Shown here: positions 38,853-45,233 of the stretch, one piece after another
Layout: each line of letters opens with the position of its first letter
Numbering within the stretch: the stretch's first letter is position 1
Assembly: GCA_009996675.1 (NCBI GenBank)
Contig: JAACZQ010000026.1
Coordinates: 5,390 to 69,389, forward strand
Source of the DNA: Chitinophagaceae bacterium
Lineage (GTDB): Bacteria > Bacteroidota > Bacteroidia > Chitinophagales > Chitinophagaceae
Length of the DNA: 64,000 bases
Direction: 5' to 3'
Notes under the pieces: generated by a model
The model's database searches: none
The model's input: only the letters and a program-made list of their open reading frames with translations
Told to the model about the DNA's origin: nothing
Position numbers and translations under genes: made by a program

Positions 38853-38931
38853 AGCTGGCTGGTTGTTAAAGCGAAGTAATTTAAACAGAAAAGCCCTGAT
38901 ACCCTACGAAAATGGCGTTGGACGGAAAAAA

Positions 38932-38963
38932 TTTGTGAGAAAATCGGTAAATACATAGTTTTG
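38932..38963 (+). promoter_or_regulatory. Probable his operon promoter
   Basis: TTTG at 38932-38935 and TAGTTTTG at 38956-38963 match the Bacteroidota -33 (TTTG) and -7 (TAnnTTTG) elements exactly, with 24 nt between the two TTTG words. Transcription would start about 4 nt before the leader peptide ATG at 38972. The same spacing is seen at the tetR promoter. Confidence 0.65.
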
Positions 38964-38971
38964 TGCCTGCA

Positions 38972-39022
38972 ATGGCAATATTTGTACATATCCACCATCA
39001 TCATTACTTACCCCGCGGGTAG
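38972..39022 (+). CDS. hisL: Histidine-operon leader peptide
   Basis: A 16-codon ORF, MAIFVHIHHHHYLPRG, with five histidines including four in a row (codons at 38993-39004). It ends in TAG at 39020. It lies between a -33/-7-type promoter and an intrinsic terminator 35 bp before the hisG start. A run of His codons directly ahead of a his operon is the classic leader-peptide arrangement; the ribosome would stall there when charged tRNA-His is scarce. Confidence 0.8.
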   Translation: MAIFVHIHHHHYLPRG

Positions 39023-39090
39023 GCTGTTGGTGTTTTGTACCTGACATAAAACATTGAATGGGCTTACCGGTGGTAAGCCCATTTTTTTTT
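39009..39090 (+). promoter_or_regulatory. His attenuator: protector, antiterminator and terminator hairpins
   Basis: Three mutually exclusive pairings fit. The protector stem is 39009-39013 with 39017-39021 (TACCC/GGGTA). The antiterminator is 39018-39024 with 39062-39068 (GGTAGGC with GCTTACC, one G-U). The terminator is a perfect 12-bp stem, 39057-39068 with 39072-39083, with a GGT loop and a T-run to 39090. A ribosome stalled on the His codons would block the protector stem and free 39018-39024 to form the antiterminator; one that finishes the peptide leaves the terminator. Confidence 0.75.
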
Positions 39091-39102
39091 AATACCGATA
39101 AT

Positions 39103-39957
39103 ATGAAATTGAAACTCGCAATCCAGAAAAGTGGCCGCCTGCACGATGATTCCATGCGTCTGCTGAAAGAATGTGGCATTGATATCAGCAATGGTGTAAA
39201 CAAACTCAAGGCTGAAGCCACCAATTTTCCCCTCGAAGTATTTTTCCTGCGTGATGATGATATTCCGCAATATGTGGAAGATGGTGTAGCCGATATCGGA
39301 TTCGTTGGAGAGAATGTGGTCTATGAAAAAAAGAAAAAAACTACAGTTGTGGAGCAGCTGGGTTTTGGTAAGTGCAGACTCAGTATTGCTGTCCGCAAAC
39401 AGGAGCAATACACCGATGCCGGTTTTCTGACCGGTAAAAAAATTGCCACCAGTTACCCGGTTATCGTTGCCGCTTTCCTGCAGGAGAAAGGTATTGAAGC
39501 CGAAATACATGAGATCAGTGGCAGCGTGGAAATTGCCCCCGGTATTGGTTTGGCCGATGCCATCTGCGACCTGGTATCCAGCGGTTCTACCCTGTTCATG
39601 AACGGATTGAAAGAAGCGGAAACCATCCTTCGTTCACAGGCGGTACTGATACGCAACAGCGATCTGTCTGAAGAACAGCTTGTAACCCTGAATCGACTGT
39701 TATTCCGGATACAATCGGTTAAAAAAGCCAGGAATAATAAATATATCCTGCTCAATGCACCCAATGAAAAATTACCGGAAATCATCGGCCTTCTGCCTGG
39801 TATGAAAAGCCCTACGGTATTGCCCCTGGCAGAGCCGGGTTGGAGCAGTGTACACAGTGTGCTGAATGAAAACGATTTTTGGGATATCATTGAACAGTTG
39901 AAAGCCGCCGGCGCAGAAGGTATACTGGTTGTGCCTATTGAAAAAATGATCGTATAA
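39103..39957 (+). CDS. hisG: ATP phosphoribosyltransferase (long form)
   Basis: First enzyme of histidine synthesis, joining ATP and PRPP; feedback-inhibited by histidine. The 284-residue protein starts MKLKLAIQKSGRLHDDSMRLL and has ISGSVEIAPGIGLADAICDLVSSGSTL, the PRPP-binding region. It keeps the C-terminal regulatory domain (EGILVVPIEKMIV), so it is the long, HisZ-independent form. The ATG at 39103 is preferred; it comes 13 nt after the terminator T-run. HisD follows by 15 bp. Confidence 0.97.
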   Translation: MKLKLAIQKSGRLHDDSMRLLKECGIDISNGVNKLKAEATNFPLEVFFLRDDDIPQYVEDGVADIGFVGENVVYEKKKKTTVVEQLGFGKCRLSIAVRKQEQYTDAGFLTGKKIATSYPVIVAAFLQEKGIEAEIHEISGSVEIAPGIGLADAICDLVSSGSTLFMNGLKEAETILRSQAVLIRNSDLSEEQLVTLNRLLFRIQSVKKARNNKYILLNAPNEKLPEIIGLLPGMKSPTVLPLAEPGWSSVHSVLNENDFWDIIEQLKAAGAEGILVVPIEKMIV

Positions 39958-39972
39958 ACCTTATTCACGACT

Positions 39973-41247
39973 ATGGAACGGATTCTTTATCCCGATAAAA
40001 ACAACTGGCCATCACTGCTGGCACGCCCGGTACTGGATCATAAAGCTTTGCAGCAAACGGTGCAGCAAGTATTGGATGCTGTTAAAAACGAAGGCGATGC
40101 AGCGGTGCAGGCCTATACCCAACGCTTCGATGGGGTATCACTGGATGGTATGGAAGTGACTGCAGCAGCAATGACCGAAGCTGCGGACCTGCTTTCCACT
40201 GAACTCAAAACGGCTATTGAACAGGCGGCTAAAAATATCCGCTTATTTCATGAGCAGCAGCAAAGCAAACCGGTTATCACGGAAACCATGCCCGGGGTAC
40301 AATGCTGGCGCAAAAACCAACCCATTGATGTGGTAGGTTTATACATCCCCGGCGGTACAGCACCCTTATTCTCCACCATCTTAATGCTGGGTATCCCCGC
40401 TTCCATTGCCGGATGCAAGGAAGTGGTATTGTGTTCTCCGCCGGGTAAAGACGGACAACTGCATCCGGCCATCCTTTTTGCTGCAAAACTGGTAGGCATC
40501 CATCGTGTTTTTAAAGTGGGTGGGGTACAGGCTATTGCCGCCATGGCCTATGGTACGGAAACCATTCCGAAAGTGTATAAGATATTCGGACCGGGTAACC
40601 AGTATGTAACCTGTGCCAAACAATTGATTCAACAAGAGGGAATAGCGATTGATATGCCCGCAGGACCCAGTGAGGTCTGCGTACTGGCCGATGCCACAGC
40701 CCAGGCCGATTTTGTTGCAGCAGACCTGCTGAGCCAGGCAGAACACGGCGCCGATAGCCAGGTATTACTGGTCAGTACCCATGAACCACTCCTGCAGGCG
40801 GTGGAGCAATCCATTGCCGTACAACTGGCAAAACTGCCACGCAAAGAACTGGCCGCCGCTGCACTCGCCAACAGTAAAGCCATCCTGGTACGGGATATGA
40901 CGGAAGCCATGGAACTGGTGAATGCTTATGCTGCGGAACACCTGATTATCGCTTCGGATGATGCAGAACAGCTGGCAGAAAAAGTGACCAATGCAGGTTC
41001 TGTATTCCTGGGCCATTATTCTCCGGAAAGTGTGGGCGATTATGCCAGCGGCACCAACCATACATTACCCACAAACGGATTTGCCAGAGCCTACAGCGGC
41101 GTGAGTCTGGATAGTTTTGTGAAAAAGATCACTTACCAGCAACTTACCCGGGAGGGATTGACCAATATTGCACCCACCGTGGCAGCCATGGCAGCAGCAG
41201 AGGGACTGGAAGCACACAGGCAGGCTGCATTGATTCGATTATCTTAA
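39973..41247 (+). CDS. hisD: Histidinol dehydrogenase
   Basis: Zn-dependent, NAD-linked enzyme that oxidises histidinol to histidine in two steps. The 424-residue sequence has VGLYIPGGTAPLFSTILMLGIPASIAGC, IFGPGNQYVTCAKQL, DMPAGPSEVCVLAD, the catalytic region AEHLIIAS and the C-terminal SGTNHTLPTNGFARAYSGVSLDSF, all diagnostic. It lies 15 bp after hisG and 15 bp before hisC. Confidence 0.98.
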   Translation: MERILYPDKNNWPSLLARPVLDHKALQQTVQQVLDAVKNEGDAAVQAYTQRFDGVSLDGMEVTAAAMTEAADLLSTELKTAIEQAAKNIRLFHEQQQSKPVITETMPGVQCWRKNQPIDVVGLYIPGGTAPLFSTILMLGIPASIAGCKEVVLCSPPGKDGQLHPAILFAAKLVGIHRVFKVGGVQAIAAMAYGTETIPKVYKIFGPGNQYVTCAKQLIQQEGIAIDMPAGPSEVCVLADATAQADFVAADLLSQAEHGADSQVLLVSTHEPLLQAVEQSIAVQLAKLPRKELAAAALANSKAILVRDMTEAMELVNAYAAEHLIIASDDAEQLAEKVTNAGSVFLGHYSPESVGDYASGTNHTLPTNGFARAYSGVSLDSFVKKITYQQLTREGLTNIAPTVAAMAAAEGLEAHRQAALIRLS

Positions 41248-41262
41248 AGTATTATTGATACC

Positions 41263-42315
41263 ATGTTTAATTTAGACGCCATCACAAGGCAGAACATTAA
41301 GAAGTTAACACCCTATTCATCGGCACGCGATGAATTCAGTGGTGAAGCCAAAGTATTTCTCGATGCCAATGAAAACAGCCTGGGTTCACCACTGGTAAAA
41401 TGGTATAACCGTTATCCCGATCCGCATCAGCGCAGGATCAAGGAACAACTGGCAGCCATCAAACAAATACCAGCCGAACAAATTTTTCTGGGGAATGGCA
41501 GTGATGAATGCATCGATATCTTATTCCGCTGTTTTTGTGAGCCTGGAAGGGATAATGTGATTATCTGTCCGCCCACCTATGGTATGTATGAAGTAAGTGC
41601 ACATATCAATGATGTGGCCATCCGCAAAGCACCGTTGCTGGACAATTTCCAGTTAAACCTCGCACACCTGGAAACACTCACGGATGAACATACGCGCATC
41701 ATCTGGCTCTGCTCACCCAATAACCCCACCGGTAATTCCCTCGACCGGGTAGATATTGAAACCGTACTCAACCATTTCAATGGTCTCGTTGTAGTAGATG
41801 AAGCCTATATCAATTTCGCCAGGCAGCAATCATTTATCCGCGACCTGATAGATTATCCGAATCTCGTGGTATTGCAGACACTCAGTAAAGCCTGGGGGCT
41901 GGCCGGTTTACGCTTGGGGATGGCATTTGCATCGTCGGAGATTATTGCTATTATGAATAAGGTGAAACCACCCTATAATATTAACCAGGCAACACAGGAA
42001 CTGGTGAGTAAGGCGCTGGAGGAAGTTGGACAGGTGAATGATATGATCCGGTTATTGGTGGATATGCGGGAGGCCCTGGCAGCTGTATTTGCTTCCATGC
42101 CTACGGTAGAGCAGGTATACCCATCCGATGCCAATTTCCTGCTGGTAAAAATACAGGATGCCCGTAAAGTCTATGAATTCCTGCTCGGTAAAGGGATTGT
42201 GTTGCGCGACAGGAGTAATGTGCAGTTGTGTGAGGATTGCCTGCGTATAACAATTGGTACGGAAAAAGAAAATACAATTTTGGTAGATGCCATGCAGGAA
42301 TGGTATAATCAATAA
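41263..42315 (+). CDS. hisC: Histidinol-phosphate aminotransferase
   Basis: PLP-dependent fold-type I aminotransferase converting imidazole-acetol phosphate to histidinol phosphate. 350 residues, normal length. LGNGSDECIDILFRCF, CSPNNPTGN and VVDEAYINFA (with the PLP-pyridine Asp) are present, and K209 in LSKAWGLAGLRLG is the PLP Schiff-base lysine. It follows hisD by 15 bp. The next gene in the operon is not his-related. Confidence 0.97.
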   Translation: MFNLDAITRQNIKKLTPYSSARDEFSGEAKVFLDANENSLGSPLVKWYNRYPDPHQRRIKEQLAAIKQIPAEQIFLGNGSDECIDILFRCFCEPGRDNVIICPPTYGMYEVSAHINDVAIRKAPLLDNFQLNLAHLETLTDEHTRIIWLCSPNNPTGNSLDRVDIETVLNHFNGLVVVDEAYINFARQQSFIRDLIDYPNLVVLQTLSKAWGLAGLRLGMAFASSEIIAIMNKVKPPYNINQATQELVSKALEEVGQVNDMIRLLVDMREALAAVFASMPTVEQVYPSDANFLLVKIQDARKVYEFLLGKGIVLRDRSNVQLCEDCLRITIGTEKENTILVDAMQEWYNQ

Positions 42316-42369
42316 GAATCTGATGGTTTCTCTGTTTTGATTCGTAATTTTCAGTCACAAATTCAATCC

Positions 42370-43662
42370 ATGATGATGAAAAAGCTTGTTCGTATGGTAT
42401 TACCTGCTGTATTGTTTGCGCAGGTGGTAACCGCCCATGATGGCAAACCCAACACTTATTTTAATCCCAATACCGATCCGGGTAATGGAGGGCTAACCCT
42501 TCCCGCAGGTTTTGTTGCCAGCCGGATCGCTGAAAATACCGGCCGTGCCAGGCATATTGCAGTTACGCCAGCCGGGGACATCTATATTAAGCTGGAGCGC
42601 TTGGTGAATGGCAAAGGCATTTACCTGTTACGGGATAAAAACAAAGATGGCATTTTTGAAGAAAGCCAGGGTTTTGGTGATTATATCGGAACAGGCATTG
42701 CTATCAAAGACGGCTATCTCTATGCCTCTTCCAATACAGATGTATACCGTTACAAGCTGGATGCCCAGTACCATGTACTGCATCCCGATCAACCCGAAAA
42801 GATCGTTACGGGTTTGCTGGATAAACGTCAGCATGCTTCCAAATCCATTGCACTGGATAATGCCGGCAATATTTATGTCAATATCGGCGCCCCCTCCAAT
42901 TCCTGTCAGGAAGTAGATCGTACCAAAGGATCCAAGGGTATGATGCCTTGTCCCATACTGGATTCAGCCGGTGGTATCTGGCAGTTTAAGACCGATAAAC
43001 TGAATCAGACCTATGCCAATGGGCTTCGTTATGCAACAGGCTTACGCAATGTGGTAGGGCTCGATTGGAATCAGGCACAGAACCAGCTCTATGTAACCAT
43101 GCATGGTCGCGATATGTTGTATACTTTATATCCGGAAATGTTTGATTCTACCGTTAGTGCAGAACTACCTTCCGAAACCATGTATGCCATCAAACAGGGT
43201 GATGATGCCGGATGGCCCTATGTCTATTATGATCACCTGCAAAAGAAAAAGATATTGTCACCCGAATATGGTGGCGACGGAAAAAAAGCGGGTGGTGAAA
43301 AAGCAATTGATCCCATTATGGCTTTTCCAGGACATATGGCACCCAATGCCTTGTTGTTTTACACCGGTAACAGTTTCCCTGCCCGGTATAAGAATGGCGC
43401 ATTCATTGCGTTCCATGGTTCCTGGAACCGATCACCCCTGCCACAGGAAGGTTATTATGTAGTGTTTGTTCCTTTTGAAAATGGTAAACCTACGGGTCAG
43501 TGGGAAGTATTTGCCAACGGGTTTGCCGGTGCACCGGTGATCAAGAATCCACGCGATGCACAACAGCGCCCCTGCGGCCTCGCACAGGGCCCCGATGGAT
43601 CCCTGTATGTATCGGATGATGTGAAAGGAACTATTTATCGTATTTCATACAACGGAAAATAA
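42370..43662 (+). CDS. PQQ-type sugar (sorbosone-like) dehydrogenase
   Basis: A 430-residue exported protein of the soluble glucose/L-sorbosone dehydrogenase beta-propeller family. The signal peptide ends near AQVVTAHD, and the ATG at 42370 (one of three in a row) is preferred over an upstream TTG. GLTLPAGFVASRIAENTGRARHIAVTPAGDIYIKL, LRYATGLRNVVGLDWNQ, GDDAGWPYVYYD, AFHGSWNRSPLPQEGY and CGLAQGPDGSLYVSDD mark the propeller. It is paired with a cytochrome c 5 bp downstream, the likely electron acceptor. It interrupts the his operon between hisC and hisB. Confidence 0.87.
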   Translation: MMMKKLVRMVLPAVLFAQVVTAHDGKPNTYFNPNTDPGNGGLTLPAGFVASRIAENTGRARHIAVTPAGDIYIKLERLVNGKGIYLLRDKNKDGIFEESQGFGDYIGTGIAIKDGYLYASSNTDVYRYKLDAQYHVLHPDQPEKIVTGLLDKRQHASKSIALDNAGNIYVNIGAPSNSCQEVDRTKGSKGMMPCPILDSAGGIWQFKTDKLNQTYANGLRYATGLRNVVGLDWNQAQNQLYVTMHGRDMLYTLYPEMFDSTVSAELPSETMYAIKQGDDAGWPYVYYDHLQKKKILSPEYGGDGKKAGGEKAIDPIMAFPGHMAPNALLFYTGNSFPARYKNGAFIAFHGSWNRSPLPQEGYYVVFVPFENGKPTGQWEVFANGFAGAPVIKNPRDAQQRPCGLAQGPDGSLYVSDDVKGTIYRISYNGK

Positions 43663-43667
43663 ACCAG

Positions 43668-44099
43668 ATGAGACTGTTCATTTATTTATTGGGCGGGCTG
43701 GCAATGGCCACTGCATTCAAGCCTGTTAAAAAAAACATACAAGTGCCAGCTACGCTGAAAGCTTCCATCGAAAGAGGCAAGACAGTCTATGTACAACGTT
43801 GCATGGCTTGTCACCAGGCCGATGGCGGTGGTGTTCCCCGTATGAATCCACCGCTGGACCGGGCAACGGCAGTAGTAGCCAATGATAAAGCCAAACTCAT
43901 TCGCATTGTTATCAAAGGCATGACCGACCGCGTGGAAATTGATGGTGAAATGTATGATAATAATATGTCGGCCAACCCGGATCTTACCGACACACAAATT
44001 GCGGATGTATTGAATTATGTACGCAATAACTGGAGTAATAAAGCCAAAGCAGTGGTAACAGCTGCAGAAGTGAAAGCTGTTCGGGCCAAATTGAAATAA
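43668..44099 (+). CDS. Periplasmic cytochrome c, mono-haem
   Basis: A 143-residue exported c-type cytochrome. After a signal segment (about 1-17) the haem motif is C45-M-A-C48-H49, in YVQRCMACHQADGGGVPRMNPPL. The probable distal Met ligand lies in the DGEMYDNNMSANPDLTDTQIADVLNYVRNNW region. It is transcribed with the PQQ-type dehydrogenase 5 bp upstream and is 3 bp before hisB, so it is the natural electron acceptor of that dehydrogenase. It is separate from the histidine pathway. Confidence 0.92.
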   Translation: MRLFIYLLGGLAMATAFKPVKKNIQVPATLKASIERGKTVYVQRCMACHQADGGGVPRMNPPLDRATAVVANDKAKLIRIVIKGMTDRVEIDGEMYDNNMSANPDLTDTQIADVLNYVRNNWSNKAKAVVTAAEVKAVRAKLK

Positions 44100-44102
44100 G
44101 TA

Positions 44103-45233
44103 ATGAAAAGAATATTATTCATAGACCGGGATGGTGTAGTGTTGCAGGAACCACCTGTGGATTTTCAGATTGATGCTGTTGATAAAACCAGTTTTGTGCC
44201 CGGTGCTATTACTGCCTTATCACATATTGCAGCAGACCTTGATTATTATAAAGTGATGGTAACCAATCAGGATGGACTGGGCACCGATTCATACCCGGAG
44301 TCTGATTTCTTCCCTTACCATAACCTCATGCTGCGTACGCTGGAGGGAGAGGGGTTTGTGTTTGATGAAATGATCATCGACCGAACATTTGCAGCAGCGC
44401 AAAAACCCACAAGAAAGCCCGGAACAGCTTTATTAACGCACCTGATGGATCCGCAACAGTTTGACCTGGCAAATTCCTATGTGATCGGCGATCGCTGGAG
44501 TGATCTGGCACTGGCGAAAAACCTTGGTTGTAAAGCCATTTATTTTCGTTCTGCCTTGCATAGCCTGACACCGGAACAGGAAACCGAACTGCGTCCTGTG
44601 ATTGCATTGGAAACCGATAGCTGGACATCCATTTACGCTTTTCTGAAAGCGGGATTGAGGACAGTGGTGCACGACCGGAATACCCATGAAACGCAAATAC
44701 ATATAGAACTGAATGCAGATGGCAACGGACAATCGAAAATAGATACCGGGATTGGTTTCTTTGACCATATGCTTGATCAGATTGCCCGACACGGGAAAAT
44801 GGACCTGGTGGTAAAGGTGAAGGGCGACCTGCACATCGACGAGCACCATACAATTGAAGATACTGGTATTGCTTTGGGTGAAGCATTTGCCAAAGCGCTG
44901 GCAGACAAAAGGGGAATGGAGCGATATGGTTATGCCTTACCCATGGATGAAGCCGAGGCCAAAGTGCTGATTGATTTCGGCGGAAGGAACTGGATTGTAT
45001 GGGATGCCAGCTTTAAACGGGAAAAAGTAGGTGAAATGCCTACGGAAATGTTTTTCCATTTCTTCAAATCCTTCAGTGATGCGGCTAAGTGTAATTTGAA
45101 TATCAGTTGCTCAGGTGAGAATGAACACCATAAGATCGAAGCTATTTTCAAGGCATTTGCCAAAGCAATCCGGATGGCGGTTCGCAGAGATCCGTTCTCT
45201 AATCAATTGCCATCCACCAAAGGCGTATTGTAG
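44103..45233 (+). CDS. hisB: Bifunctional histidinol-phosphatase / IGP dehydratase
   Basis: Two-domain enzyme of 376 residues. The N-terminal HAD phosphatase (about 1-185) has the nucleophile D8 and D10 in FIDRDGVV and YVIGDRWSDLALAKNLG. It lacks the zinc-binding cysteines of enterobacterial HisB, as in other Bacteroidota. The C-terminal imidazoleglycerol-phosphate dehydratase (about 188-376) carries the metal motifs DEHHTIEDTG and ENEHHKIEA, plus FDHMLDQIARHG. It begins 3 bp after the cytochrome gene and ends exactly before the convergent sugar-transferase stop. No hisH, hisA, hisF or hisI follows in the window. Confidence 0.97.
   Translation: MKRILFIDRDGVVLQEPPVDFQIDAVDKTSFVPGAITALSHIAADLDYYKVMVTNQDGLGTDSYPESDFFPYHNLMLRTLEGEGFVFDEMIIDRTFAAAQKPTRKPGTALLTHLMDPQQFDLANSYVIGDRWSDLALAKNLGCKAIYFRSALHSLTPEQETELRPVIALETDSWTSIYAFLKAGLRTVVHDRNTHETQIHIELNADGNGQSKIDTGIGFFDHMLDQIARHGKMDLVVKVKGDLHIDEHHTIEDTGIALGEAFAKALADKRGMERYGYALPMDEAEAKVLIDFGGRNWIVWDASFKREKVGEMPTEMFFHFFKSFSDAAKCNLNISCSGENEHHKIEAIFKAFAKAIRMAVRRDPFSNQLPSTKGVL

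Follow-up and report, generated by a model that had tools for sequence, protein, structure and literature searches.

The question raised by this locus is whether a bacterium of the family Chitinophagaceae senses its histidine supply through a ribosome that translates a short peptide ahead of hisG. The DNA analysed, referred to throughout as the window, is a 64-kb stretch of Chitinophagaceae bacterium (assembly GCA_009996675.1, contig JAACZQ010000026.1, positions 5,390–69,389). An original prediction, made from the letters of this stretch, had named a promoter-like pair (TTTG and TAGTTTTG), a 16-codon peptide with five histidines, four of them consecutive, and a perfect 12-bp terminator before hisG. 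All of these are present, followed by the histidine genes:

38932–38935, + strand: −33 promoter element TTTG, Bacteroidota housekeeping sigma type (sequence; family spacing)
38956–38963, + strand: −7 promoter element TAGTTTTG (sequence; conserved spacing to the leader ATG)
38972–39022, + strand: leader peptide ORF, MAIFVHIHHHHYLPRG then stop (conserved before hisG)
38987–39004, + strand: control codons His-Ile-His-His-His-His (sole four-His run of the window)
39057–39090, + strand: intrinsic terminator, 12-bp stem of 39057–39068 with 39072–39083, then T-tract (7 of 10 consensus pairs with compensatory changes)
39103–39957, + strand: hisG, ATP phosphoribosyltransferase with C-terminal domain (TIGR00070 and TIGR03455 over cut-off)
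39973–41247, + strand: hisD, histidinol dehydrogenase (TIGR00069 over cut-off)
41263–42315, + strand: hisC, histidinol-phosphate transaminase (TIGR01141 over cut-off)
44103–45233, + strand: hisB, bifunctional histidinol-phosphatase / imidazoleglycerol-phosphate dehydratase (NF003937 over cut-off; PF00475)

In support of the original prediction, we read this region as an attenuator through which a translating ribosome would control transcription of the hisGDC(..)B operon, and assign this reading a probability of roughly 0.92. The leader and its switchable hairpin very probably let the bacterium sense histidine sufficiency through the translating ribosome.

A conserved histidine leader before hisG

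Four His codons in a row occur only at 38993 in the whole 64 kb, both strands counted. The first gene of the operon is preceded by a short, putatively translated ORF with a run of codons for the operon's own product. Between this ORF and hisG lies the terminator, with 12 perfect pairs, a GGT loop and a T-tract that extends to 39090. The fold of the leader RNA beats 200/200 dinucleotide shuffles (z −2.85).

The gene order on the one strand is hisG, hisD, hisC, two redox genes and hisB, and hisB would be co-transcribed with hisGDC across the two genes between them. The hisC–hisB gap (window 42337–44099) holds a gene with a glucose/sorbosone dehydrogenase domain (PF07995) and a small cytochrome c (PF00034); as both stand on the same strand between hisC and hisB, the histidine attenuator may control both. 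On a separate contig of the same genome lies hisA (TIGR00007 over cut-off). Its surroundings, with ORFs read by eye, contain trp-like genes on one side, hisH before hisA, and hisF and hisI(E) after it. At this place (L254, C44:22000–32000) the trp-like ORFs are directly followed by hisH, hisA, hisF and hisI(E), all but hisA named by reading, and half of the histidine pathway may therefore follow a tryptophan attenuator.

A leader in a relative was defined as an ORF up to 450 nt from hisG in which six codons include three or more His. Three sets were scanned: a named set of 80 loci, the best 80 of 214 relatives found, which include Sediminibacterium, Chitinophaga, Deminuibacter, Ilyomonas and Terrimonas; a family set of 90 places, composed of 30 loci (the window's own included) and 60 of 113 others picked to cover genera; and a phylum set of 80 places picked to cover families. 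These relatives do not count as independent samples, and the named and family sets share some genomes. A His leader was found within this distance at 80/80 named, 83/90 family and 54/80 phylum places, against 3.4, 3.0 and 3.4 in shuffles and 8, 4 and 3 on the reverse strand. A His-codon run conserved in relatives had been proposed as a check of the original prediction, and the named and family counts bear it out. The phylum matches contain a few ORFs that look doubtful (e.g. L120, L124, L154 and L185), and at 26/80 phylum places a leader was not found within 450 nt of hisG. Ten additional phylum places yielded three candidate leaders.

Two of the seven family misses are contig ends (L202 and L219). 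Three others (L216, L221 and L224) have a His leader 570–640 nt upstream of hisG, a distance that leaves room for an insert or an extra gene, and L246 and L248 have no clear leader within 700 nt. A terminator-like hairpin follows 194/217 leaders, as compared to 22/217 after shuffling. Searches with RNA model R1 gave one match in the window's own genome at an E cut-off of 0.001 (7e-17; 150 of 1392 first-look candidates scored) and, in 482 kb, one strong match, which is the window's, with three others at E 0.016–0.028. Among 118 genomes of the order 44 match, and the 23 with at least 58 bits are all inside the family, so R1 reaches other lineages poorly.

Mutually exclusive pairings in the leader RNA

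Segments 1 (CUUACCC, 39007–39013), 2 (GGUAGGC, 39018–39024), 3 (GCUUACC, 39062–39068) and 4 (GGUAAGC, 39072–39078) are two repeated words, and the pairings 1:2, 2:3 and 3:4 are therefore mutually exclusive. Folding gives the following structures upstream of and overlapping the terminator:

38984–39040, + strand: protector hairpin, core 39007–39013 with 39017–39023
38993–39000 with 39025–39032 and 38984–38988 with 39036–39040, + strand: outer helices of the protector (folding)
39018–39068, + strand: antiterminator, 39018–39025 with 39061–39068 and 39027–39038 with 39046–39057 (folding)

The protector stem was anticipated by the original prediction and is recovered in these folds, where the hairpin takes in the His codons. 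The stop codon (39020–39022) sits, as had been claimed, inside the segment common to protector and antiterminator. The antiterminator had been given as 39018–39024 with 39062–39068; this pairing exists (7 pairs, one G-U), but its extent was understated, as it is only the foot of a longer antiterminator of 20 bp in total, made up of an 8-bp foot and a 12-bp inner helix.

Switch states were computed from folds of the nascent RNA as it stands once segment 3 is complete, with or without a ribosome footprint on it. For the window, P(1:2) is 0.81 and P(2:3) is 0.04 with no ribosome. With the A site on each of the five His codons P(2:3) is 0.88–0.98, and with the ribosome at the stop codon it is 0.00. 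The full-length RNA at equilibrium favours the terminator in every ribosome state (P(3:4) 0.97–1.00), so the choice must be kinetic and made while the RNA grows. By these computations, the leader is predicted to form an antiterminator that depends on ribosome position and excludes the terminator.

The same folding was carried out on 155/160 family and named leaders, with the five that have no recognisable segment 2 left out. P(2:3) is at least 0.5 in 145/155 when the ribosome is stalled on the last His codon and in 0/155 when it is at the stop; in 46/155 it reaches this value with no ribosome, and in these the antiterminator is predicted to be favoured. When a ribosome stalled on the last His codon is given its footprint, 10/155 leaders lose the antiterminator; most of these have a His within 5 nt of segment 2. 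In 110/155 leaders 13 nt separate the last His codon from segment 2, and in 120/155 the stop codon starts 2 nt inside this segment. Given these two near-fixed spacings, the recurrent peptide end, often F/Y-L-P-x-G, looks like a reading of RNA structure.

The alignment used for covariation holds 60 leaders: of 160, 145 were kept, 72 remained after near-duplicate removal, and 12 of these were set aside by eye, mostly because the His run was displaced or the stop codon came later. In the terminator, 7/10 pairs show compensatory changes. Across the antiterminator foot, 96.9% of cells are paired versus 20.7–50.0% when slid; 2/8 of its pairs are changed on both sides, a count equalled or exceeded in 81/500 shuffles, and its covariation score was reached by 20/500 shuffles. 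For the protector core the paired share is 85.2% versus 22.6–55.6% when slid, and no protector covariation was found in this alignment (474/500 shuffles as high). Covarying stems in relatives had also been proposed as a check: the terminator answers to it, the antiterminator does so between lineages, and the protector does not.

The comparison with power is the one between lineages, not the one within the family. Among the family and named leaders (160 of 163 used), segment 2 pairs with its own terminator arm at a score of at least 16 in 95% of the 160, and in 8% after shuffling. When family arms are swapped 85% still reach this score, as compared to 95% for own arms, and segment 2 is nearly invariant in the family. 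Between lineages, 33 phylum leaders were compared, with 21/54 that have no strong terminator left out. A score of at least 15 is reached by 79% of the 33 own pairs outside the family. Shuffling lowers this share to 12%. Phylum segments reach the score with family arms in 5% of cases, family segments reach it with phylum arms in 26%, and swaps inside the phylum set do so in 31%. Genomes that we label flavobacteria-like, a guess, pair CTCAAGCG with CGTTTGAG, and other lineages pair GCCGG with CCGGC. Judged from these swaps, the antiterminator pairing is maintained by different sequences across lineages.

Promoter spacing and the start of the leader message

The TTTG element and TAGTTTTG have 20 nt between them, and TAnnTTTG occurs once in 38853–39103. 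Both elements of what reads as a Bacteroidota housekeeping promoter (TTTG / TAnnTTTG) stand at a fitting distance. Among family and named leaders, a TTTG lies 17–22 nt before the −7 box in 114/154 (shuffles 4.4%). For 76/80 named, 79/83 family and 31/54 phylum leaders, a box was found no more than 60 nt from the first His codon (shuffles 4–5%). The TAnnTTTG box spans −12 to −5 in F. johnsoniae (PMC6847099) and in F. psychrophilum (PMC9723704). The predicted 5' UTR therefore equals the box–ATG gap minus 4, which is 4 nt in the window; transcription would start near 38968, and the near-absent 5' UTR of the original prediction fits the conserved promoter spacing.

With the first in-frame start after the nearest box taken as the start codon, this codon follows the −7 box by no more than 11 nt in 70/76 named and 59/79 family leaders, 129/155 together. 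It lies exactly 4 nt behind the box, for a predicted UTR of zero, in 37 leaders with ATG and 3 with GTG or TTG. Ordinary genes were taken from 400 kb of two relatives and the window, with crude gene calls and the first ATG used; in this control 47/208 have a box, 9/47 of these at 11 nt or less, with a median of 36. It replaced a smaller first control of 16 usable genes, from which target genes had not been removed (2/16 at 11 nt or less). From the contrast between 129/155 and 9/47 we infer that the leader message is leaderless or nearly so. UTRs so short are a published minority in three species: ~3.7% of UTRs are under 10 nt in B. thetaiotaomicron (PMC7366714), 5.5% are leaderless in F. psychrophilum (PMC9723704) and 87% exceed 10 nt in F. 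johnsoniae (PMC6847099).

Leaders of two other operons were compared with the his leader. In the window's own genome (leaders L267 and L268), MMNTNSWFYFFFYYFFEKRSRVVFAKA lies upstream of pheA with the box 4 nt before the first ATG, and MIQTINIQWWWHTNSVRGL lies upstream of trpE with a box that has C as its first letter, at 7 nt; a hairpin and a T-tract were seen by eye after each. In the family (L269–L328), Phe/Tyr-rich peptides stand before pheA and WWW peptides before trpE, close behind a −7 box. A Phe/Tyr leader precedes pheA at 30/31 family places (gene present in 31/40 family genomes; shuffles 0.6) and a Trp leader precedes trpE in 29/30, the 30 best family matches (shuffles 2.2). The start is within 11 nt of a box with A, C or T as first letter in 22/30 pheA and 23/29 trpE leaders, counts that are biased towards short gaps by taking, of several starts, the one nearest the box. 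Six trp and four phe family leaders have no such box within reach. By their sequences, the pheA and trpE leaders of the family look like the his leader in design. For leuA no leader was seen by eye, and the gene is close to the contig start; the ilvB match is without the first 52 profile positions.

We propose the following course of events, in which the start site, the coupling of ribosome to polymerase and the response to histidine are all elements of the model. With a start ~4 nt before the ATG, a ribosome could load when the 5' end has barely emerged. When charged tRNA-His is ample, the ribosome would reach the stop codon inside segment 2 and cover this segment, 3:4 would pair, and transcription would end before hisG. 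With too little charged tRNA-His, the ribosome would stall on the His run and cover segment 1. The run ends 12–13 nt before segment 2, about the front footprint of a ribosome, and the free segment 2 would then join segment 3 and the sequence preceding segment 3 in the 20-bp antiterminator, allowing the operon to be transcribed. Absent translation, the protector 1:2 would form first and the terminator after it.

The same spacing data bear on whether the attenuator could be real with a message that is not near-leaderless, the main start lying elsewhere and the ATG-proximal box not being the main promoter. We consider this unlikely, given gaps of at most 11 nt in 129/155 leaders versus 9/47 ordinary genes, a −33 TTTG at a fitting distance in 114/154, the same spacing at pheA (22/30) and trpE (23/29), and the single TAnnTTTG in 38853–39103. 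Its appeal comes from a start deduced from the consensus box alone, from the 8/163 named and family leaders whose first His codon has no exact box within 60 nt, and from the 26/155 in which the box is 14–27 nt before the start codon.

Still less probable, and by a wide step, is an element without any histidine control, made up of a constitutive promoter, a short His-rich micropeptide and a partial terminator. His-rich peptides can bind metals, and the product could be, for example, a metal-binding peptide, but where the same design stands before pheA and trpE, its codons are for Phe/Tyr and Trp. The peptide's end follows RNA pairing, with the stop 2 nt inside segment 2 in 120/155, and the alternative pairing is maintained across lineages by different sequences. 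The least credible alternative is that hisG is controlled by a T-box, a riboswitch or some other described RNA and that the His run is incidental: his genes of Firmicutes are under T-boxes (PMC9413887), but no Rfam 15 family reaches its gathering score in the 64-kb window, 38900–39130 contains only sub-threshold matches, the His run is conserved, and the phe and trp operons have cognate codons.

Other lineages and known attenuators

The attenuator, as we read it, is kept in the flavobacteria-like genomes, where the box is mostly 17–35 nt from the ATG. Two loci filed in the same family as the window (L247 and L249) have flavobacteria-like segments 2 and 3 and not the family's, which might reflect operon transfer or misplaced genomes. 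Another family of the phylum, f21, of which 12 members were covered (L111, L112, L113, L118, L125, L126, L131, L138, L145, L160, L162 and L177), has a long His leader, with a GTG start in 8/12 and the box 4–5 nt before the chosen start in 6/12. No strong terminator was found in 11/12 members, and three have weak hairpins. The f21 spacer is 8% G, 25% C and 40% T overall, with every member at or below 11% G, as compared to 19% G and 17% C in the spacer of the family set. By composition it resembles a Rho utilisation stretch and makes f21 a candidate for Rho-dependent attenuation, which we regard as a lead and not a result. We tentatively suggest, at somewhat below even odds, a joint picture. In it, the his, phe and trp attenuators of Chitinophagaceae would all act on leaderless or near-leaderless peptides, with early loading at the 5' end, not a long UTR and Shine-Dalgarno sequence, keeping the ribosome in step with the polymerase; and f21, with its His leader often a leaderless GTG, would have exchanged the terminator for a G-poor, C-rich spacer and so probably use Rho. 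In mycobacteria, leaderless poly-Cys uORFs act as attenuators, the leader ORF carrying codons of the sensed amino acid. These presumably resemble the terminator-less f21 more than the window.

The enteric hisL leader (RF00514, His_leader) is similar to the window in its short peptide with a His run before hisG, its terminator and antiterminator, and a ribosome position that decides between them. On the leader, RF00514 scores 13.9 bits (E 4.9), below its gathering score of 49. The enteric leader has an extra hairpin between the pause hairpin and the terminator (PMC1183508). This hairpin is absent here, where the folds show 1:2, 2:3 with its inner helix, and 3:4, and the predicted 5' UTR is ~4 nt. 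The layout of the window is therefore of the four-segment trp type; the wording of the original prediction, "as in enteric hisL", is right as to logic but not as to layout. The E. coli trp leader (segments I–IV) shares the 1:2, 2:3, 3:4 layout and logic (PMC1183508) and differs from the present case in that we find His codons, a stop inside segment 2 in most relatives and, by prediction, almost no 5' UTR. The attenuator RNA of Sinorhizobium meliloti trpL has its 5' end at the leader-peptide ATG (PMC7298713); it belongs to a different phylum, amino acid and promoter type, and its 5' end was mapped, whereas that of the window is deduced.

Related observations have been published from the same phylum. 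In Flavobacterium psychrophilum, structured 5' elements lie before hisG and pheA, are conserved in other genera of its family and have no Rfam hits; the same work reports strong clues for leader-peptide attenuation of amino-acid operons (PMC9723704). Leader-peptide attenuation is therefore not new to the phylum. The presumed flavobacteria in our sets have other segment sequences than the window and a box 17–35 nt from the ATG. Leader-peptide attenuation is also reported from Proteobacteria, Actinobacteria and some Firmicutes (PMC2965389 and PMC9413887). A literature search of partial coverage found no description of the Chitinophagaceae element. The anatomy across the family, the fixed spacings and a near-leaderless start common to the his, phe and trp leaders seem to be new.

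The leader provides a complete conserved anatomy of ribosome-mediated attenuation in Bacteroidota, for which the literature found gives only clues, and describes an RNA element that has no Rfam 15 match at Rfam thresholds. It implies that transcription and translation are coupled in this phylum, at least near the 5' end. With three such leaders (his, phe and trp) in one genome, initiation on a near-zero 5' UTR without a Shine-Dalgarno sequence becomes directly testable, as does whether early loading keeps the ribosome in step with the polymerase.
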